A stretch of 29,311 bases of DNA from a virus, in the IMG/VR virus record IMGVR_UViG_3300025759_000481, positions 1-29,311 of that record, one strand, 5' to 3'. The notes beneath the pieces were generated by a model that worked only from the letters and a program-made list of their open reading frames with translations, had not been told where the DNA came from and searched no databases. Of this stretch, positions 4,786 through 24,592 are shown one piece after another. Position numbers and translations under genes: made by a program. Position 1 is the first letter of the stretch. Each line of letters starts with the position of its first letter.

Positions 4786-5039
4786 TACTCTTCCTCCTCA
4801 ATATTTTCTTGATTTGCAACCACGACAAGACGCACCGCTCTTGGTTTGCAATCAGGACAATGCGCATCAGCAAACGTCACACCATCCCAATCCCTGTACT
4901 CATCAAACGACCACTCATAATTTTCGTAGTCGTCCACCAATACATCAGCAGACTGCCACGCACCACTAAACTCAGTGCTATAACAGCCATCACACCGCAA
5001 AGCCCAACCTTCCGTTGGACCTTCAAACTCCAAACCCAT
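4785..5039 (-). CDS. Hypothetical zinc-ribbon-like protein
   Basis: The 84-residue product has two CxxC pairs, C-D-G-C (16-19) and C-P-D-C (about 61-64), separated by a very acidic and aromatic segment (DDYENYEWSFDEYRDWDG). This is the arrangement of a small zinc ribbon with an acidic insert. The C-terminus ends E-E-E-E. ATG 5039 follows AAAGGAGAAGATA, a strong ribosome binding site. It is the first gene after the terminator of the DUF932 gene, so it may begin a transcription block. Function unknown. Confidence 0.55.
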   Translation of the reverse strand: MGLEFEGPTEGWALRCDGCYSTEFSGAWQSADVLVDDYENYEWSFDEYRDWDGVTFADAHCPDCKPRAVRLVVVANQENIEEEE

Positions 5040-5114: not shown

Positions 5115-6128
5115 TTAGGCGTCAACCAAGTCGCTAACCATCTTAGTTGCCTTAGCAGTCATCGGGAAATCATTGTTGATGAACTTCGTCATCATGCGCT
5201 GATCCCGATTCTTGTCGTGACCATGATAATGCTGCTCGTACTCATTAACAGCCTGAATAGCATGAAACGCAGACTGACGAGGAATCGTACCGTTCTCGTT
5301 ATGCCAAATGTTTTTCAACATGACACGCGTTTCTGCCGCAGCATTCTGCGCACGCGTATTCGACTGCACCCAATCGCCACTGACAGGATGCACTTTGTAC
5401 GTCGCATGAACAGGCATCTGAATAAGATCAACAAGCGTATCAAACTGCCGATTCGTAAACTCTGTATCAATCAGCCGCATAATCTCCACGTCCATCTCAT
5501 CAGCCTTACGATACGCAGACTCCAACGCATACCGAGCATCAGACAAACGATCCTGAGCAGACGCAGTGTGCTTAATCGACCAGCGCATCTGCCCAAGCCG
5601 AGTAGCCAGATCATACGTGTTCTGACACACAACACGAACATTGACCACATAGACAACAAAATTGCCAGTGCCATGATGCGCAGCCACAAGCAAGAAACGC
5701 TGAGTAGCCTCTTCAGTGTTCTTAAACGCCAAAGACTCGCCAAGATCAAGCAACATCCAAGCCATAGACGAATTGAACATCGTCCCAGCAGTCACAACCG
5801 GCAAATCCAACGGCTCAACAAGCCGAACAATCTCACTGTTCTGAATGATCTCATAACGATCAGACACAATCTGAGGCTGCTTGCCAATCGACTCATACAC
5901 AGGACCGCCATCAATGTCGTCAAAACGCATACGAGAAAGCAGATACCTGCCATCAATAGGCTGATACGAGTCACCATTCACAATCGTTCGCTTCATGATC
6001 TCATAATCAAGACCACCAAGCTTATAAGCGCTTGTCGGCGTCAACACCGTGTCATCAGGCAGAACCAAGCCTTTCCGATGCCACGGCGTCTCACCAACAG
6101 ACACCATCATTTCAGGGATTGCACCCAT
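5115..6128 (-). CDS. DUF932 / phage-plasmid-like protein (TIGR03299 type)
   Basis: The 337-residue protein begins M-G-A-I-P-E-M-M-V and carries the features I associate with the DUF932 family: an N-terminal TPWHRKG segment, the region S-D-R-Y-E-I-I-Q-N, and the core MAWMLLDLGES with VVNVRVVCQNTYDLA. The family is common in phages and plasmids; its biochemical role is not settled and a link to DNA replication or recombination has been suggested from context. ATG 6128 overlaps the previous stop as TAATG and is preferred over GTG 6137. The terminator hairpin follows directly. The size is in the normal range, so the gene appears intact. Confidence 0.75.
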   Translation of the reverse strand: MGAIPEMMVSVGETPWHRKGLVLPDDTVLTPTSAYKLGGLDYEIMKRTIVNGDSYQPIDGRYLLSRMRFDDIDGGPVYESIGKQPQIVSDRYEIIQNSEIVRLVEPLDLPVVTAGTMFNSSMAWMLLDLGESLAFKNTEEATQRFLLVAAHHGTGNFVVYVVNVRVVCQNTYDLATRLGQMRWSIKHTASAQDRLSDARYALESAYRKADEMDVEIMRLIDTEFTNRQFDTLVDLIQMPVHATYKVHPVSGDWVQSNTRAQNAAAETRVMLKNIWHNENGTIPRQSAFHAIQAVNEYEQHYHGHDKNRDQRMMTKFINNDFPMTAKATKMVSDLVDA

Positions 6129-6415
6129 TATTCCCACTCTCCTTCATTTCTGTAATGTTCGGCCATAGTTTCAGCAACATCTAACTGTATTGCTTCTAGA
6201 TATTTTACATGGTTAGGTTGTTTTACCTTGAAGTAAAGCTCATCAAAAGTCAGAAGGGTCACACGATCAAGCGCCTGCTCAACCAAATAATCCCATTCCT
6301 CTTGACGATCAGCCATAATCTGAGCCAAAGCCTCATCGTATTTGTGCTTGGCTTTTTCACGGGACTTGACTAGTTCAGCCAAATCATGCTTGTACTTCTC
6401 ATTGCTAGTACTCAC
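6128..6415 (-). CDS. Hypothetical charged helical protein
   Basis: The start is GTG 6415, with AAGGAG 4 bases upstream, giving 95 residues; the frame stays open to 6508, but that part runs through the terminator hairpin. The protein is rich in charged residues and probably helical throughout (LAELVKSREKAKHKYDEALA, then EEWDYLVEQALDRV), suggesting a coiled-coil protein. It is coupled to the DUF932 gene by TAATG and may be co-expressed with it. No family is recognised. Confidence 0.58.
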   Translation of the reverse strand: MSTSNEKYKHDLAELVKSREKAKHKYDEALAQIMADRQEEWDYLVEQALDRVTLLTFDELYFKVKQPNHVKYLEAIQLDVAETMAEHYRNEGEWE

Positions 6416-6449
6416 TACACTCCTTAACTGGTAACGATACGGGTGGGGT

Positions 6450-6478
6450 ATATTTGATAGTGAATTACTCCAGTACAA
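6450..6478 (-). promoter_or_regulatory. Candidate leftward promoter downstream of a terminator
   Basis: On the minus strand TTGTAC (6478-6473), 17 bases and AAATAT (6455-6450) give a plausible sigma-70-type promoter. It would restart transcription just after the hairpin at 6479-6520 and serve the 95-residue and DUF932 genes. The match is moderate and the -35 abuts the hairpin base. Confidence 0.3.
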
Positions 6479-6520
6479 AAGAGACGGGTCATGGCCTTGC
6501 CCAACCATGACCCGTCTCTT
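6479..6520 (-). terminator. Perfect 16-bp hairpin terminator
   Basis: AGAGACGGGTCATGG (6480-6494) pairs without mismatch to CCATGACCCGTCTCT (6505-6519), with one more A-T pair outside, around a 10-base loop CCTTGCCCAA. The minus-strand flank is TTTT. It ends the block of small genes at 6564-7532. The flank on the plus strand has no clear T run, so leftward termination is the better reading. Confidence 0.75.
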
Positions 6521-6563
6521 GTTAGTAGGGCAGTTTTACCTCATGCCCAGGAGGTGGGGGGAT

Positions 6564-6626
6564 CTATTCTGTTCTAAGTGCCAGAATCACAAAGAACATC
6601 AGCATCAACCATCCAAGCCCTGACAT
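6564..6626 (-). CDS. Putative 20-residue membrane microprotein
   Basis: ATG 6626 overlaps the stop of the upstream gene as TAATG, and TAG 6564-6566 ends a 20-residue peptide starting M-S-G-L-G-W-L-M-L-M and continuing F-F-V-I-L-A-L. It is almost entirely hydrophobic with a charged end (R-T-E), as expected for a single membrane helix. Support comes from coupling and composition only; the length is too short for statistics. Confidence 0.35.
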   Translation of the reverse strand: MSGLGWLMLMFFVILALRTE

Positions 6627-6838
6627 TAGAACGGCTCCAACAGGAAGTCTTCAAAGTCAGGCGAACCTTCCTTTTCGATTGCGTGGTCTAGCAGCAACTG
6701 CGACAGATAGTTGGCTAGTTCGTCAGCCTCACGCCAATTCATCGTCAGGTACTGCGTCATATAGGTGTTGCTTACCTGATCGTGGATATCCCAACGCATA
6801 GTAAACGCTGAACCGTTACGGTCAAATGAAAGATTCAT
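6626..6838 (-). CDS. Hypothetical protein (70 residues)
   Basis: ATG 6838 has GGAG 6 bases upstream and overlaps the previous stop as ATGA, so it is preferred over TTG 6865. The protein begins M-N-L-S-F-D-R-N-G and contains TMRWDIHDQVSNTYMTQYL, followed by a helix-like region ADELANYLSQLLLDHAIE and an acidic end. It resembles the two upstream genes in layout (a beta-rich start, then a helix with A/L and acidic residues), so the three may be paralogues. Function unknown. Confidence 0.55.
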   Translation of the reverse strand: MNLSFDRNGSAFTMRWDIHDQVSNTYMTQYLTMNWREADELANYLSQLLLDHAIEKEGSPDFEDFLLEPF

Positions 6839-7017
6839 ACTGCTCTCCAAACTTGTGTGGCCCAATCGTCAATCATGCTGACAATCATTTGTGCCTCTTG
6901 ACTGCGTGCGTTCAATTCCAACAGGAACTCGTCGTTAGGCCCAAAGAACCTGACCGAAGCGTTAAGCCCATCAAAATCAACCAGCTCATAACTGGCAAGG
7001 TCAGAGTACTGAATCAT
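6835..7017 (-). CDS. Hypothetical protein (60 residues)
   Basis: I choose ATG 7017 because GGAGG stands 9 bases upstream; ATG 7023 is an alternative with too-close spacing. The start lies inside the 3' end of the upstream gene. The product (M-I-Q-Y-S-D-L-A-S-Y) has alternating hydrophobic strands, VDFDGLNASVRFFGPNDEFL, and a C-terminal helix EAQMIVSMIDDWATQVW, like its neighbours. No known family. Confidence 0.52.
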   Translation of the reverse strand: MIQYSDLASYELVDFDGLNASVRFFGPNDEFLLELNARSQEAQMIVSMIDDWATQVWRAV

Positions 7018-7291
7018 CAGCATCATCCTCCGGGTAGAATTCGGCCCACTCGTCAGCATCTTCTGTTTCAGCCGTTGCCTCGGCGAGTCTCTTGTCCTCA
7101 CGGTAGATGGCCGCTGCACTGAGTATGTGGTCAGCCAAACTGACAATTCCCCATTCATCTGTCATGAAGAACGTGACGCTGTTGTTACCGAAGCGCACGG
7201 TAGCCCACGTTGCATACTCGTTACCTCCAACATTCACCACCGGAGATTCTCCGTCAGTGTGCATGTTGATACTCGTTGATCCATAACCCAT
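7001..7291 (-). CDS. Hypothetical acidic protein (96 residues)
   Basis: ATG 7291 follows AAAGGAGAAACAAA, a good ribosome binding site. The protein has a beta-rich first half (ATVRFGNNSVTFFMTDEW), a helix (SLADHILSAAAIYRED) and a very acidic tail (DADEWAEFYPEDDADDS). Layout is shared with the next two genes downstream, suggesting duplication. No family recognised. Confidence 0.55.
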   Translation of the reverse strand: MGYGSTSINMHTDGESPVVNVGGNEYATWATVRFGNNSVTFFMTDEWGIVSLADHILSAAAIYREDKRLAEATAETEDADEWAEFYPEDDADDSVL

Positions 7292-7316
7292 TTTGTTTCT
7301 CCTTTGTTAGCGATTA

Positions 7317-7532
7317 CTAAAGCGACTCATCCGAACAGGCTTCGCACCAGAAACCCAAATCACCAAACGGATTGTTTGGACGATTCGCAATACAGATCTC
7401 TCTGTGCTCAACGCTGCTGTCAGGCCAAACAACCTGAACAAAAGCACCACTTGTATACCGAATCCAATCCGCCGGAGTCACCTCCGTCGAATAAGTTTCA
7501 GCGCAATTCACACAAATTGCTTTCAAATCCAT
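7317..7532 (-). CDS. Hypothetical zinc-ribbon protein, first gene of the leftward operon
   Basis: ATG 7532 lies after TTGGAGGGACAAAA; the frame continues far upstream only because the GC-rich island is free of stops in it. The 71-residue product has C-V-N-C (7-10) and C-E-A-C (63-66), two CxxC pairs that can hold one zinc. It is the first minus-strand phage gene beside the island. The AT-rich stretch 7545-7590 upstream is where the early promoter should lie, but I see no convincing -35/-10 pair. Confidence 0.6.
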   Translation of the reverse strand: MDLKAICVNCAETYSTEVTPADWIRYTSGAFVQVVWPDSSVEHREICIANRPNNPFGDLGFWCEACSDESL

Positions 7533-7762
7533 TTTTGTCCCTCCAATTTTTTTTAACTTGTATGCCAATCGGTATCGTGATAGTGAGTCCCGCGGGGGGG
7601 CGGCGCGCACATCCCGGCTCGGCGTGCGAGCGGGCCGGCGCCGTGGGGGCACCCCGTTGCTGTCGGCCCCGCCCCGTTGGGGACGGCCCCTCGTGCGGCG
7701 TCGCCGCGTACACGACGGCGCCCCGACCCGTGCGGGCCGGGGCACCTGCGCCTCCTGACGGA

Positions 7763-8203
7763 TCAGATCAGGTCGATGATGTCGTCTCGCTCCTCGATCT
7801 CGCGGGGAGTGTTGATCGGAATCAGGGCGAGAGCCAGCGGCTCCAGGACGTCCTCGGCGGCGGTGAAGTCCGGCACCTCGAAGTACCCTGAAATCCTCGG
7901 AGCTTCCGAGTGGCCTTGCCCCATCTTGTAGGTCTTGACCGTGTGCGTCACGACCACGAAGGTGCGTTCCACTCCGTCGCTCTTGGTGACCTGGCTGACG
8001 AAGTACTTGTGGAACTCGCCATCACCGACGGGCAGATCGCCGTGGTGGGGCACGTCGTGGACCCAGGAGCCGTTGACCTTTCCTCCGAAGAGAGTCTTGG
8101 CAATCTGGATACCGTCTGTTCCATCGGGGATCACCTTGAACTGGTGGGCGTGGATTCGATCCAACGCCTCCCCGAGGATTTCTTCTGGCAATGCGGTGCT
8201 CAT
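7763..8203 (-). CDS. Hypothetical protein of the GC-rich island (intact copy)
   Basis: The 146-residue protein starts at ATG 8203, 7 bases after AGGAGG, and its codons are strongly GC-ending, unlike the phage genes on either side. Visible parts include EALDRIHAHQFKVIPDGTDG, VGDGEFHKYFVSQVTKSDG, FVVVTHTVKTYKMGQGH and a C-terminal EIEERDDIIDLI. It looks like a soluble alpha/beta protein with regular strands; I recognise no family. A decayed inverted copy at 9336-9891 keeps the same order of segments, showing the gene was duplicated with the arm. Codon use and G+C suggest acquisition from a high-GC actinobacterium or plasmid, which is an inference. Confidence 0.65.
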   Translation of the reverse strand: MSTALPEEILGEALDRIHAHQFKVIPDGTDGIQIAKTLFGGKVNGSWVHDVPHHGDLPVGDGEFHKYFVSQVTKSDGVERTFVVVTHTVKTYKMGQGHSEAPRISGYFEVPDFTAAEDVLEPLALALIPINTPREIEERDDIIDLI

Positions 8204-8240
8204 CTAGAGCCTCCTTGTTTCGGTTAGGGCCTCACCAAAG

Positions 8241-8256
8241 CGGGACGGGGGTCCCG
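8241..8256. promoter_or_regulatory. Leader hairpin, left arm
   Basis: CGGGAC (8241-8246) and GTCCCG (8251-8256) form a 6-bp stem with a GGGG loop, 38 bases upstream of the start of the 146-residue gene. The same hairpin, flanked by matching sequence (GTGTGACGCATG further out), lies before the decayed copy. Retention in both arms while the reading frame decays suggests a role in leader RNA or DNA structure. Confidence 0.45.
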
Positions 8257-8283
8257 TGACACTGTGGCATGCGTCACACCTGC

Positions 8284-9245
8284 GGAGCGGAGGATTGAGG
8301 AGGAGGAGGGAGTAGGAGCCGAGGAGGAGGAGTGAGGAGGAGGAGTGAGGAGGAGCGAGGAGGAGGAGGAATGAGGAGTGAGGAGGAGGAGGAGCGAGGA
8401 GGAGTGAGGAGGAGGAGAGAGGAGGAGTGAGGAGGAGGAGAGAGGAGGAGGAGTGACGAGGAGGAGGAGCGAGGAGGAGGAGTGACGAGGACGAGCGAGG
8501 AGGAGGACGAGTGAGGAGGACGAGTGAGGAGAAGGAGGAGGACGATTGACGAGGAGGATTGAGGAGGACGATTGAGGAGGAGGATTGAGGAGGACGAGGA
8601 TTGAGGAGGAGCAGTGACGAGGAATGACGAGGAGCGGCGACGAGGATTGAGGAGGAATGACGAGGAGCTTCGACGAGGATTGAGGAGGAGCAGTGACGAG
8701 GAGCGCGAAACGAAGCGGACGGAAGAACCGGAATGAATGGAACGTCGTGCGGAGCGGAGAGACGAGGAACGAGGATCGGAGCGGAGCGCGATAGTGGAAT
8801 GAATGGAGGTGATGACGGGAGCGTAGTGGAGTGGCGACGAGGAGCGGCGACGACGAAGGACGAGGAGTGGCGACGAGGAATGACGACGAAGGACGAGGAG
8901 TGGCGACGAGGAATGACGAGGAATGGCGACGACGAATGACGAGGACGACGATTGACGACGACGATTGAGGACGACGATTGACGACGAGGAATGAGGACGA
9001 CGACGACGACGAGTGAGGACGACGAGTGAGGACGACGACGAGTGAGGACGAGGAGCGACGACGACGAGCGACGACGACGAGGAGCGACGACGACGAACGA
9101 CGACGACGAATGACGACGAACGACGACGACGAGTGACGACGAGCGACGACGACGACGAGCGACGAGTGACGACGACGACGAGCGACGACGAGTGACGACG
9201 ACGAGTGACGACGACGAGGCGACGCCGACCGACGACGACGATTGA
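8284..9245. repeat. Purine-rich GAG/GAC triplet-like satellite between the arms
   Basis: Nearly 1 kb is built from GAG, GAC and GGA steps broken by TGA, CGA, ATTGA or AATGA. The left part (8284-8700) is dominated by GAGGAGGAG units, the right part (8820-9245) by GACGACGAC units, and the middle (8700-8820) is the least regular. The plus strand is almost free of T runs and overwhelmingly purine on the left. All three minus-strand frames stay open, giving artificial Ser/Leu/Val/Pro-rich translations; these are a composition effect. GGA repeats can form quadruplexes or triplexes in known DNA. No gene is called here. Confidence 0.9.
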
Positions 9246-9281
9246 CGGAGCGGAGCAGGTGTGACGCATGGCATGGTGACA

Positions 9282-9297
9282 CGGGACCCCCGTCCCG
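9282..9297. promoter_or_regulatory. Leader hairpin, right arm
   Basis: CGGGAC (9282-9287) and GTCCCG (9292-9297) form the same stem as in the left arm, here with a CCCC loop, 39 bases upstream of the ATG of the decayed gene copy. It is the inverted counterpart of the hairpin at 8241-8256. Confidence 0.45.
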
Positions 9298-9462
9298 CTA
9301 TGGATGTGGTCCTTAGCGAAACAAGGAGGCTCTAGATGCGCTCCGCATGGCCATAAGAAATCCTCCCCCCCTCCCTTCCCTAAGCCTTTCGTATCCTAGA
9401 AACTTTGCTGACCGAGAGGGGAGGCGTTGGATCGAATCCACGCCCTCCAGTTCACAAACAAG

Positions 9463-9479
9463 ACAGTCCCGAAGGGGCG
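9463..9479 (+). repeat. 17-bp mini-hairpin repeat, copy 1
   Basis: ACAGTCCCGAAGGGGCG contains a CCC-GAA-GGG mini-hairpin. It lies inside an insertion that the intact left-arm gene lacks. A second copy with one change is at 9705-9721. Confidence 0.55.
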
Positions 9480-9704
9480 ATCGAACGATCCCCGATGGAA
9501 CTGACGGTATCCAGATTGCCACGCACTCTCTCGGTTGAAAGGTCAACGGCTCATGGGCCCACGACGTGGTCCACCACGAGCGAGATGTTCGTCGGTGATG
9601 GCGAGTTCCACCAGTACGCACGTCAGCCAGGGTGCCAAGAGCGACGGTGTGGAATGCAGATTCGTGATCGTGACGCACACGGTCAAGAGCTACAACAAGA
9701 AAGG

Positions 9705-9721
9705 ACAGTCCCGTAGGGGCG
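9705..9721 (+). repeat. 17-bp mini-hairpin repeat, copy 2
   Basis: ACAGTCCCGTAGGGGCG differs from copy 1 only in the loop (GTA for GAA). It also sits in an insertion absent from the left arm, between the TACAA and ATGGGGCAAGG segments of the decayed gene. Confidence 0.55.
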
Positions 9722-9891
9722 TTTAAAAATGGGGCAAGGCCACGACGGAAGGTCCGCGCGATTTCAAGGTACTTCGAGGTGCCGGACAGCACTGCCGGTG
9801 AGGGCGGTCTGGAGCCGCTGGAATCGTCCTGATTCCGAACTACACTCCCCGCGTGATCGTGGTGCGAGACGACATCAACGGCCTGAGGTGA

Positions 9892-10242
9892 TCCGTCAGG
9901 TGGTGCAGGGGCACCGACCCGCACGGGCCGGGGCGCCGTCGTGTACCAAGACGCCGCACTAAACAAGAACGGCGAGCGCAGCGAGCACGAAAACTGGCCG
10001 TCCCCAACAAGAGAAAGAAACGGCGAAGCACCAGAACCAAGGGGCCGACAGCAACAAAAAATAACGGGCAGCGTAGCTGCCACCATCAACCGCCTCCACG
10101 GCGCCGGACAAGCGAAGCATCGCCGACGGGACCGAAGCCGAAGCCCCTGCCCCCCCTACGCAAGTCTGACGGTGGCTTCCGGGTACGGTTGGTCTGTGCG
10201 TTCGGTTTCGGTACCGAGGGATGTGCCGCGCCGCCCCCCCGC
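9892..10242. other. Outer part of the right arm, non-coding, with mini-hairpins
   Basis: No credible gene is seen. Blocks matching the left arm in inverse order are GGGCACCGACCCGCACGGGC with GGCGCCGTCGTGT, GGCCGTCCCCAAC, GGGGCCGACAGCAAC, CGGCGCCGG and the terminal repeat. Between them are insertions not present on the left, several holding mini-hairpins: GCGAAGC at 10023-10029 and again at 10112-10118, and GGCAGC-GTA-GCTGCC at 10067-10081. d(GCGAAGC) is known as an unusually stable DNA mini-hairpin. Plus-strand frames over this stretch look random. Confidence 0.6.
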
Positions 10243-10258
10243 TTAAATAATGCTAATC

Positions 10259-10329
10259 TTTGTGTTTGTTGTTTTGGTTTGGGGGTTTGGTTTGGGGTGT
10301 TGTGTGGTGTTGGGTTTGTGTGTGTGTGG
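10259..10329 (+). repeat. 71-nt tract of only G and T
   Basis: Every base from 10259 to 10329 on the plus strand is G or T, with runs such as GGTTTGGGGGTTTGG and TTTGGGGTG and ending in TGTGTGTGTGG. The G runs are spaced so that a G-quadruplex is possible. It begins 16 bases outside the island's terminal repeat, after a short AT-rich stretch (TTAAATAATGCTAATC). No gene is seen. Confidence 0.9.
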
Positions 10330-10483
10330 ACCCCTGGGGTTCCCTCCGTCAGTTTCGGTTGATCGCCGCTAGCAAGTAGCTTTGGTTGCTAGGCCGCAGC
10401 CAGTTAAGGACATGCGGCGGCTGCCCCTCTGACGGGCGATCTCTCGGCGGCTGGCCGAGGCACAACTGTTGACCGAGTTGTGT
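10328..10483 (+). ncRNA. Candidate structured RNA or DNA element before the late operon
   Basis: The region holds many inverted repeats: GGACCCC/GGGGTTCC dyad (10328-10343); CCGTCAG (10346-10352) with CTGACGG (10429-10435); GATCGCC (10361-10367) with GGCGATC (10435-10441); CTAGCAA (10369-10375) with TTGCTAG (10386-10392); GCCGCA (10393-10398) with TGCGGC (10413-10418); CTCGGC (10443-10448) with GCCGAG (10454-10459); CACAACT (10461-10467) with AGTTGTG (10476-10482). The second and third pairs cross, which would make a pseudoknot. No known RNA family is recognised. It could be a leader RNA, a packaging RNA or the packaging site itself. No open frame of interest overlaps. Confidence 0.5.
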
Positions 10484-10511
10484 GCGGTGTGGTTGCATTA
10501 TGTCAGTGGCT

Positions 10512-10993: not shown

Positions 10994-11180
10994 GAAGAAG
11001 CCTGTGAAGAAGGGTTTGTCGAATCCGAAGGCTGCGAAGGGTGCTGCTGCGTCTTCTGCGAAGGGCGGTAATCGGAGTATGAAGGGTTCGTCTGCTTCTG
11101 CTGCGAAGGGCGGTAATCGTTACTCGAAGGGTAATAAGAATCGTCCTTTGCCGATGAAGAAGAGTGGTCGGCGGCGCTAA
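10983..11180 (+). CDS. Small basic repeat protein
   Basis: ATG 10983 has GGAG 7 bases upstream and overlaps the end of the preceding gene. The 65-residue product is almost only K, G, A, S, N and R, with an internal repeat (S-A-K-G-G-N-R-S-M-K-G, then A-A-K-G-G-N-R-Y-S-K-G). It resembles histone-tail-like phage proteins, probably disordered and nucleic-acid binding. Specific function unknown. Confidence 0.5.
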   Translation: MKSKKKPVKKGLSNPKAAKGAAASSAKGGNRSMKGSSASAAKGGNRYSKGNKNRPLPMKKSGRRR

Positions 11181-22099: not shown

Positions 22100-24592
22100 A
22101 TGGAACGTGGATTGGAAATTTGGGTTTCTCTTACCGAAGAAGAAAAAACGCAGGTTCTTAATGGTGTTGCTCCTGAGTTTCTGTCGCCTTACGATTTTTC
22201 GGTACTTCAAGACTGGATTAATACGAGTTTGCGCTCGCAAACTTCAACTACTCCTTTTAATGCTACAGAAATTTTAAATCCAGACGCCCCAAAGGCTTCT
22301 CCGCCGCGTACTTCTACAAGAACTTTTACGAGTGCTACTAGTAACGTTCCTGAAGCACCAGCGCCTACTTCTACGAGGACTCCTAGCACTGGACCAGCGC
22401 GTACTTCTACGAGGACTCCTAGCACTGGAATTGTTGAGTTTGATCAGCCGGTAGAAGCTATTCGAGACTCTCTTAACCAATTGGCTACTGAAGCGCCTAG
22501 ACCATTTACTCCTGGTTTTGAACTTGACATTAGTAAGTTTATTAGCCGATTTGTTCAAGAAATTGATGGTCTAATTGGCGGTGTAGAAAACGAAATAGAC
22601 AATTTGAATCAGCAAATTGCTGACACTTATTATGTCGGCGCTGACGTTAGCGAACAGAATGCTTTGTATTATGCGTCCGCAATCGCGTTTCTTAAAAATC
22701 TAAACGAATTCAATAATCTTGATGATCCAGATATTACTATTGAAGATTTGTTTTCAGGCGATACCCCAATCAGAGTAAAAGATTTTGAATACGGCGCTTT
22801 TAAAGTTGAAACAATCCGTACTTTTGCTAATGGGTTTGAGCTTCTTGACGCTCTTTATGATGCTGATCCGTTGTTGCATCCTGGAACTGGCATTTACGAA
22901 ACAGAAGCAGATATTAAAAAAGCCCAAGAAGAAATTTCAAAAAGTATTGAAAACTATTCAGAGATTGAAGATACGCGGCCAGAACTTGTTGATTCTTTGT
23001 CGGATTCTAAAAAAGAATTGGCAAGGCTGTCTCAAGTTAAGTTTAATTTGAATGGTTCTTTGGGTATTGGTGAAATAGGCACTACTGAAGAAGATTTGAT
23101 GGGGCCAGTTTCTGATGAAGGGAAACTTGCTGTAGCTCTTAATTCAATGAGGGAACTTCAAGAGTACGCTGATTTCCGTTATTTGATTGACCCTCTTGAA
23201 AATTTGCGGCAGTCGATTGCTCCTGGTTTAGAATCAATTTCTTTGGTAAATAATCCAGAGTTGTCTGCGGCAATGCGTAGTAACGCTACTGCTGAATCTG
23301 AACGTCTGTTGTCTGTTTCAACTGAGCGTTCTGTTACAACTGAGCGTCCTGACGCTTCTGCTTTCGGTACGTTTGTGCCCAGTGAGCGTCCTGACGCTTC
23401 TGCTTTCGGCCAGTCTGCGCCGAGTCAAAGCCCTAGTGTTTCTGGTTTTGATCCTGGTATGAATTTGCAGGGTGGTCAGCCTGCAAGTGTTGAACCTGTT
23501 GTTCTGGGTGGAGGAAATCAACGTCCTGATGCTTCCGCTTTTGGCGTTGTTCCTTCGCAAACTGGTGAGGAACAACCTGGTAGCACGCCAAGACAACCGT
23601 GGCAATTGCCTAGTGAAATACAGTATGAAGTTGTTGAAGCAATGACTTCTTTGTTTGGCATTAGAGCAGCGTTTTGGAATTTGGATGAAAACCAATTGAA
23701 GATTGGTGTAGACAGAAACGGTTTGCCTGTTGATCCAAACTCGTCAGAAGCACTACGAGTTGAACATCTTCTGTCTTATATTTCAGGAAGAAAAATTACT
23801 GATGAGAACCGGATTCTAGCTGCTGTTGAACAAACGCCGTGGTATAGAAGTACAAATGCTTCTATGCGGGAGTTTGATGCTAAATATGGCGGGCTAGAAG
23901 CGTTTCTAAGTTTGAATCCTGAAAATCAGCTTGACAAAATTGGTGACGTTTACACTGTTGTTGAATCTGGGTTTAAGCAACTTGGTGTTCAGGTTTCTGA
24001 AGATCGAATGATTGAGATTGCTGCGACGTTGGATTATTTGGGGTATGAGCTAGACGAAAACGAAATCTTTACTGCTGTTATGGAGGAAGCAAAACGTGTA
24101 GAGAATCAGTTTAATGCTGAGACTGCTGAGTTTACTGAGTTTGCTTCTAGTAGAGATGCGGTTCAGTCTCTTGCGCAGCAGTATTATTTGAATCTTCCTG
24201 CAAGTGTTATTGCAGATTATGCTGAACAGCTTTTTACTCGTGATATGACGGTTGAAAAGTTGGGTTCTATTTTTAGAGAACAAGCTTCTGCAAGGTTTGC
24301 TCAAGATGTTCGTGTTCAAAGTGCTTTGAATGCCGGGATGACTTTGGAGCAGTATTTTGCTCCTTATCAAGGCGAGTTGGAACGTATTTTGGAACGTCCG
24401 GTTGATTTGTTTTCAGAGTTTCCTGAAGTTCTTGAATTCATGGGGTCTGATGGGGATGTTCGTGCGATGACGTATTCAGAGATGCGTCAGTTTGCTCGCG
24501 AGCAGCCTGAGTGGGCGCAAACAACGGCTGCTCAAGATGCTGCTACTGAAATGGTGTTTGAACTTGGACGATTGTTTGGGACGGTGGCGTAA
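22100..24592 (+). CDS. Large virion-associated protein with low-complexity repeat linkers (830 residues)
   Basis: Three ordered regions are joined by disordered linkers. After a short N-terminal domain comes a Thr/Ser/Pro/Arg linker (residues about 65-114) with the 12-residue repeat TSTRTPSTGPAR. A helical, acidic domain (about 115-395) contains long helices such as DIKKAQEEISKSIENYSEIE. A second linker (about 400-500) repeats R-P-D-A-S-A-F-G three times. The C-terminal part (about 500-830) is helical with FSEFPEVLEFMGSDGDVRAM near the end. It resembles multi-domain ejection or internal head proteins in organisation only. The start is ATG 22100, two bases after the upstream stop, with GGGG upstream; the end overlaps the next ATG as TAATG. 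Confidence 0.5.
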   Translation: MERGLEIWVSLTEEEKTQVLNGVAPEFLSPYDFSVLQDWINTSLRSQTSTTPFNATEILNPDAPKASPPRTSTRTFTSATSNVPEAPAPTSTRTPSTGPARTSTRTPSTGIVEFDQPVEAIRDSLNQLATEAPRPFTPGFELDISKFISRFVQEIDGLIGGVENEIDNLNQQIADTYYVGADVSEQNALYYASAIAFLKNLNEFNNLDDPDITIEDLFSGDTPIRVKDFEYGAFKVETIRTFANGFELLDALYDADPLLHPGTGIYETEADIKKAQEEISKSIENYSEIEDTRPELVDSLSDSKKELARLSQVKFNLNGSLGIGEIGTTEEDLMGPVSDEGKLAVALNSMRELQEYADFRYLIDPLENLRQSIAPGLESISLVNNPELSAAMRSNATAESERLLSVSTERSVTTERPDASAFGTFVPSERPDASAFGQSAPSQSPSVSGFDPGMNLQGGQPASVEPVVLGGGNQRPDASAFGVVPSQTGEEQPGSTPRQPWQLPSEIQYEVVEAMTSLFGIRAAFWNLDENQLKIGVDRNGLPVDPNSSEALRVEHLLSYISGRKITDENRILAAVEQTPWYRSTNASMREFDAKYGGLEAFLSLNPENQLDKIGDVYTVVESGFKQLGVQVSEDRMIEIAATLDYLGYELDENEIFTAVMEEAKRVENQFNAETAEFTEFASSRDAVQSLAQQYYLNLPASVIADYAEQLFTRDMTVEKLGSIFREQASARFAQDVRVQSALNAGMTLEQYFAPYQGELERILERPVDLFSEFPEVLEFMGSDGDVRAMTYSEMRQFAREQPEWAQTTAAQDAATEMVFELGRLFGTVA
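22367..22429 (+). repeat. Tandem 36-bp unit with 27 identical bases
   Basis: ACTTCTACGAGGACTCCTAG and the next seven bases occur at 22367-22393 and again unchanged at 22403-22429. They encode the repeated T-S-T-R-T-P-S-T-G. Identity at silent positions means a recent duplication. Confidence 0.8.
23341..23409 (+). repeat. Direct repeat, 27 identical bases at 42-bp spacing
   Basis: TGAGCGTCCTGACGCTTCTG plus seven bases occurs at 23341-23367 and 23383-23409, encoding E-R-P-D-A-S-A-F-G twice. A third, diverged copy (Q-R-P-D-A-S-A-F-G) lies near 23519. This is the second disordered linker of the protein. Confidence 0.8.

Follow-up and report, generated by a model that had tools for sequence, protein, structure and literature searches.

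Obelisks are RNA agents rather than loci of DNA genomes; they are circular RNAs of about 1 kb and encode an Oblin protein. The island described here is found in a tailed phage at positions 7592–10242 of a 29,311 nt stretch of DNA (IMG/VR record IMGVR_UViG_3300025759_000481, termed the window). It resembles Obelisks and other rod-like viroid-like RNAs in displaying a long, predicted rod-like fold over most of its sequence and one small open reading frame on one arm (PMC11922315, PMC13096302). The proportion of bases paired in the rod-like fold on the + strand exceeds the 60% set for Obelisks, i.e. 66% in the window and 82% in each of two related islands, L006 and L059. Unlike Obelisks, however, the island is DNA-encoded at a fixed place in the phage genome and is contiguous with phage genes in three contigs. 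The three islands range from 1.3 to 2.65 kb in length, the open reading frame is on the strand opposite the favoured fold, and the pairing is strand-asymmetric.

GOLLD and ROOL are also large structured RNAs encoded by phages (PMC12286853). These are multi-branched and have pseudoknots and a conserved core, whereas the island is predicted to be one rod and has no Rfam match. A moron is an autonomous cargo gene of deviant G+C and optional presence. The island has in common with it an extra gene of deviant G+C that is located between divergent units and is absent from the records of other relatives, many of which are fragments; morons as usually conceived, however, include neither a mirror copy of the gene nor a rod. 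Insertion sequences, MITEs and fold-back elements likewise have inverted terminal repeats around an inserted block, yet the island has no transposase or visible target-site duplication, and its whole length is folded, not only its ends. Protein-primed linear phages of the phi29 type have inverted repeats at the early/late divide. These phages have a terminal protein and a protein-primed polymerase and no terminase, whereas a large terminase is present in the window phage; in addition, the nearest isolates (Beephvirinae) have direct terminal repeats, and the island repeat is internal with a 9-nt loop and strand-asymmetric mismatches. No published phage element of this kind was found in the open-access literature. 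If the + strand is indeed made as RNA, the kind of element is new; otherwise the island is an unusual decayed inverted duplication.

The inverted-repeat island and its small gene

The source phage is a 29.3-kb IMG/VR fragment. Its leftward genes are of the early type (SSB, Erf-like annealing protein, Cas4-type exonuclease and DUF932), and its rightward genes begin with small open reading frames and the terminase and include the major capsid protein. The capsid protein is approximately 41% identical to those of Streptomyces phages of the Beephvirinae, and the local order, i.e. terminase followed by a very large protein and then the capsid, is as in these phages. The GC-rich island occupies 2.65 kb between the leftward early and rightward late units, as a sequence-only reading of the window had proposed.

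That reading also described inverted arms with matching blocks in the same order. The island ends at 7592–7607 and 10227–10242 form a perfect 16-nt inverted repeat, thus the limits are exact, and over 7592–7615 and 10218–10242 the ends match at 24 of 25 positions. The inner part of the right end, GGATGTGCCG, is common to relatives at the late side. The left arm extends from 7592 to 8283 and the right arm from 9255 to 10242. A gapped self-match of positions 7693–8283 with 9255–9959 gives 72% including gaps (E-value = 7e-129), and ungapped blocks of 35–123 nt are mostly 85%–97% complementary, all in mirror order. The right arm has inserts relative to the left arm; these are A-rich and bear short hairpins, and there is also a 52-nt pyrimidine-rich insert at positions 9366–9417 of the + strand. 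The G+C content is 0.59–0.65 (about 61%) in the island compared with 0.40–0.50 (about 45%) in the early flank, and none of the window proteins tested is a transposase or integrase; both properties had been noted from the sequence. The island is flanked by GTCCC and TTAAA and shows no target-site duplication. Searches for tRNAs and Rfam families revealed no tRNA or known RNA; no covariance model, including GOLLD, ROOL and OLE, matched the window at E ≤ 1, and L059 and L014 gave only sub-threshold chance matches.

The intact gene is in the left arm, at positions 7763–8203 of the − strand, and has 146 codons with an AAGGAGG site before the ATG. The mirror copy lies on the + strand of the right arm at approximately 9336–9891. 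It has kept the AAGGAGG and the ATG, and these are followed by stop codons, inserts and indels. Thus the arms do share a gene, as proposed, the right-arm copy being broken. The 146-aa protein is 36% identical to that of the L006 island (E-value = 4e-20) and aligns with that of the L059 island at 18% identity (hhalign E-value = 2e-4). It has no match in Pfam, PHROG, the phage collection or GTDB genomes, and no homologues of the island protein besides those of L006 and L059 were found in phages, viral contigs or GTDB genomes. The gene is missing from 20 of the 22 related records searched, many of which are fragments. A structure search gave no match at E ≤ 0.001; weaker structural matches, some of them to RNA-phage coat proteins, have TM values of about 0.2 and were dismissed as noise. 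Judged by these comparisons, the island gene is a putative, undescribed and fast-evolving protein family with homologues only in the L006 and L059 islands.

A search with the terminase gave 51 related loci. L006 is the nearest relative (terminase identity 89%) and has an island at 6375–8266, which is the same genomic place as that of the window island. The L006 island has terminal inverted repeats, arms that are 80%–83% complementary over stretches of 404 and 151 nt, and an intact − strand gene together with a broken mirror copy. A pyrimidine-rich insert of 52 nt likewise occurs in the right arm of L006, at a position near that in the window. L059, which was found through a leader pattern, has an island of 1.3 kb in which an intact gene is accompanied by a broken, inverted copy that covers most of it; the alignment score of gene and copy is 377, compared with 84 ± 9 for shuffles. 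The L059 protein aligns with the window and L006 proteins over most of its length. The L006 and L059 islands therefore have the plan and place of the window island and a different sequence. The end sequences differ between phages and the site is fixed. Within each phage the arms are alike; between phages the genes differ greatly, and conservation of the flanking genes is much higher. L060, a sister contig of the window phage, is 99.8% identical to the window up to base 6428 and ends before the island.

A comparison with related phages had been suggested as a check. It places the island in L006 and L059, and shows a GC-rich region with other leftward genes, without such arms, at the island site of more distant relatives. 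The proposal that the island is foreign or cargo DNA held between the operons stands to this extent, that the site holds other GC-rich leftward genes in those relatives. Separately, the L006 and L059 islands, which are otherwise unlike, share close to their right ends an almost identical stretch of about 38 nt, GGAAGTCT..CTTTGTTTGACCGGTGCCGGTGGTTTAAG (about 8160–8190 in L006 and about 950–910 on the − strand of L059). In more distant relatives the cargo region contains or is flanked by clusters of CGAACNNNNGTTCG-type sites similar to the LexA (SOS) box of actinobacteria, e.g. at 4977–5009 and 8121–8210 of L037; similar sites are seen near the right end of L008, L009 and L013.

Strand-specific pairing and the predicted fold

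The arm alignments were scored by identity only, hence no mismatch type was favoured. Mismatches that are favourable on the + strand (G.U, G.A, U.U and G.G) were compared with their complements (A.C, C.U, A.A and C.C). L006 displays 108 favourable and 3 complementary mismatches (n = 111, p = 2e-28). By class there are 57 G.U vs. 0 A.C, 36 G.A vs. 3 C.U, 9 U.U vs. 0 A.A and 6 G.G vs. 0 C.C; the transversion classes alone give 51:3. The corresponding numbers are 41 and 9 for L059 (p = 6e-6) and 48 and 20 for the window (p = 9e-4), where the bias is weaker than in the other two. This preference for one strand argues against selection on double-stranded DNA or on a cruciform as such.

In L006 adjacent mismatches are rarer than expected (3 vs. 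20.9), and the longest perfect run is shorter than random in L006 (16 vs. 24) and in L059 (14 vs. 29). The longest perfect run in the window, 28, is inside the shuffled range. Adjacent mismatches are commoner than random in the window and L059, and regular spacing is not common to all three islands. In L006, 11 of 83 C residues at the third codon position are mismatched, compared with 24 of 78 at the first and second positions, as if synonymous changes restore pairing. Pairing is thus maintained in a strand-specific manner in three related phages; these are the three genomes with the island, and among them compensatory changes are not separable from pairing itself.

The pattern of changes shows that the + strand has been adapted to form one very large hairpin, probably as RNA. 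The RNA minimum free energy (MFE) of the window + strand is −1547.7 kcal/mol, compared with −1046.1 ± 7.5 for dinucleotide shuffles and −1374.4 for the − strand, and the fold predicted for the whole island (7592–10242) is one giant rod. With 12 dinucleotide shuffles per sequence, the MFE z scores of the + strand are −66.6 (window), −66.0 (L006) and −32.3 (L059), and those of the − strand are −43.6, −32.7 and −24.2, respectively; the + strand is lower in all three. Unpaired C residues on the + strand amount to 12%, 8% and 12% in the three islands, in the same order, vs. 63%, 40% and 28% for unpaired A.

The window rod has its predicted apical loop of 9 nt at positions 8764–8772 and is decorated with A-rich side hairpins. 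L006 is one continuous rod with a loop at 7213–7221. L059 shows two adjacent rods; the order of its paired segments is a circular permutation of the order in L006 and the window, and the cut is near the place of the 52-nt pyrimidine-rich insert of L006. Control regions of the window have far less stable folds. No comparable rod is seen in L008, L012, L037, L041, L045, L048 or Streptomyces phage Kumquat, and L017 displays a mild + strand excess.

The purine centre of the island, at 8284–9254 (about 950–970 nt), carries no gene. It is not a plain repeat and folds back on itself on the + strand. Its 5′ half, of the (GGA)n type (8293–8763), pairs with its 3′ half, of the (GAC)n type (8773–9245), in exact register over about 470 columns, with 160 Watson-Crick, 27 G.U, 263 G.A and 19 other pairs, and 6 gaps. 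The alignment rewarded G.A pairs, therefore unit shuffles and register slides serve as the test. Pairing is 96% compatible in register and at most 75% at any slid register, and the score of 425.5 falls to 202.9 ± 10.6 after shuffling the repeat units of one half. Under the same rules the − strand scores −232. The pairs include G-C, C-G, A-T and T-A, and 136 of the 137 C residues face G. With identity-type scoring there are 261 favourable and 20 complementary mismatches. Since “ga” faces “ga”, the centre cannot result from copying a complement. The centre of L006 contains a small version of the same motif.

DNA folding parameters likewise prefer the + strand, so that these energies do not tell RNA and single-stranded DNA apart. 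We infer that the folded molecule is the + strand as RNA, because a transcript is the simpler way to account for a rod of 1.3–2.65 kb. The search for a + strand promoter was negative, a sigma-70 scan showing nothing above chance. A start at GATAGTG, with +1 at the first rod bases, would fit by its spacing in all three phages; it was rejected since the motif is situated among leftward genes and ahead of leftward starts. A T7-like phage RNA polymerase, suggested by GACTCACTATC, had no match in 13 records, nor in the control genomes.

Explanations for the island

The best reading, to which we assign a probability of roughly 55%, is that the island specifies a giant RNA rod on the strand opposite to a rapidly evolving protein gene. 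The island would be one overlapping unit in which the − strand codes for the protein and the + strand for the rod. The gene region on one arm would pair with its decayed mirror copy on the other, and the purine centre would close the rod with single base pairs separated by tandem G.A pairs. The mirror copy would thus be a folding partner and not a dead gene. As to function, the most likely mechanism, which is put forward tentatively, is that rightward transcripts across the divide are kept stable and harmless as the cargo sequence folds back on itself. The few unpaired C residues would make for poor Rho loading, and the L006 and L059 rods, having no long perfect duplex, would be poor RNase III targets. 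The antisense of the cargo mRNA would be masked in cis by the mirror arm, and the − strand mRNA would stay less folded, since these pairs become A.C and C.U mismatches in it. The 52-nt pyrimidine insert is C-rich and unpaired and does not fit the idea of a rod without unpaired C.

A close rival, though in itself rather unlikely, is that the rod is the working RNA (a decoy, scaffold or other large structured RNA in infection) and the opposite-strand gene is secondary. The gene-free centre keeps its pairing in register, thus the rod seems to be maintained for itself, and the A-rich window inserts with their short hairpins agree with this; on the other hand, no conserved primary sequence or motif is recognised between the three rods, their length varies from 1.3 to 2.65 kb, and the topology of L059 differs. 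The mirror copy would serve as a folding partner on this reading too. It is improbable that the island is a by-product of repeated inverted duplication and decay, i.e. template-switch palindromes with one copy decaying, where the asymmetric mismatches would come from biased mutation or from selection against folding of the − strand mRNA. Mutation hotspots are known at quasi-palindromes (PMC3820800, PMC7202029), the arms within a phage are much more alike than the genes between phages, and the + strand of the adjacent late leader is rich in G and T, all of which would suit such an origin. Strand-specific deamination, however, gives transitions only, yet the L006 transversions are equally biased (51:3), and “ga” facing “ga” is impossible by copying, yet there are 160 Watson-Crick pairs in register. 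Deamination as the sole cause is excluded by the transversion classes and the centre.

We consider it very improbable that the island is a DNA-borne, viroid-like (Obelisk-like) RNA replicon captured by or living in the phage genome, where the rod would be transcribed or released as RNA, circularise and replicate, with the protein gene on the opposite polarity. The rod-like fold, with 66%–82% of bases paired and one small open reading frame on one arm, is comparable to that of a hot-spring Obelisk, which has 68% of its bases paired (PMC13096302), and the circular permutation of the L059 segments with respect to those of L006 and the window would be explained by a circle captured at different points. 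The fixed genomic place in three phages speaks against a replicon, as do the strand-asymmetric pairing, which is unlike that of a replicon needing to fold in both polarities, and the lack of a ribozyme match in the island. The sequence-only reading had offered joined terminal inverted repeats or a chimeric contig, and we give hardly any credence to the island as physical ends in either form. Its premise that linear ends lie at the early/late divide is correct for the nearest isolates, whose ends lie between the early genes and the terminase: the record of Streptomyces phage Kumquat (OR193800) starts 658 nt before the terminase, and its first ~260 bases (1–263) recur at the record end. These are direct repeats, however. 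The symmetry point of the island is a 9-nt loop in a G.A-paired centre, and DNA ends would not be expected to show a strand-specific mismatch bias, which would be left without explanation. The two independent contigs L006 and L059, each with a similarly built island at this site, speak against a chimera or assembly artefact.

Should the + strand be made as RNA, in the manner of the overlapping gene and rod preferred here, these tailed phages would carry an RNA hairpin of exceptional length, its helix spanning roughly 0.6–1.3 kb. Ordinary, G.U and tandem G.A pairs would hold the helix together, and it would be kept through rapid sequence turnover by the matching of a protein gene with its non-coding mirror. 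It would also mean that natural selection has maintained a duplex of hundreds of base pairs interrupted by G.A pairs, and that one piece of DNA can serve both a protein gene and a giant RNA. The strand-asymmetric mismatch classes between inverted arms provide a simple test for finding more such elements among inverted repeats that are usually ascribed to mobile elements or artefacts.

Sequences near the early/late divide

At window positions 10342–10500 a strongly conserved leader of about 150 nt separates the terminase operon from the late side of the divide. It is present at the same place in L006, L059, L014, L008–L013, L017, L037, L041 and L048. RNAalifold analysis of 14 sequences gives 28 pairs, 11 of which are changed on both sides, and the leader has no Rfam match. 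It is likely an undescribed structured RNA, and perhaps has a pseudoknot in which CCGTCAG pairs with CTGACGG and GATCGCC with GGGCGAT. Directly after the island, positions 10260–10330 are almost purely G/T on the + strand, a character that is kept in all relatives read.

The GATAGTG motif (CACTATC) recurs between leftward early genes, often next to a small palindrome or terminator-like hairpin. In the window it is found as CACTATC on the − strand at 7579–7585, just outside the left island end, where it was assigned by position only. Other sites are at 5227, 6360, 7573 and 8071 of L006 and in L059, L008, L012, L020, L021, L037, L041 and L046. In L006 and L059 the motif precedes leftward starts by 22–26 nt, and it is probably a leftward early promoter element of this phage group.

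Among the metagenomic contigs, starts upstream of the terminase are frequent and loosely clustered; their positions do not coincide, and no common physical end was found. The direct terminal repeats of Kumquat adjoin a long non-coding stretch. Two tandem duplications are also present in the window, one at 11035–11132 upstream of the terminase (45-nt units, 79% alike) and one at 22357–22429 inside an 830-aa late gene (36-nt units, 97% alike).
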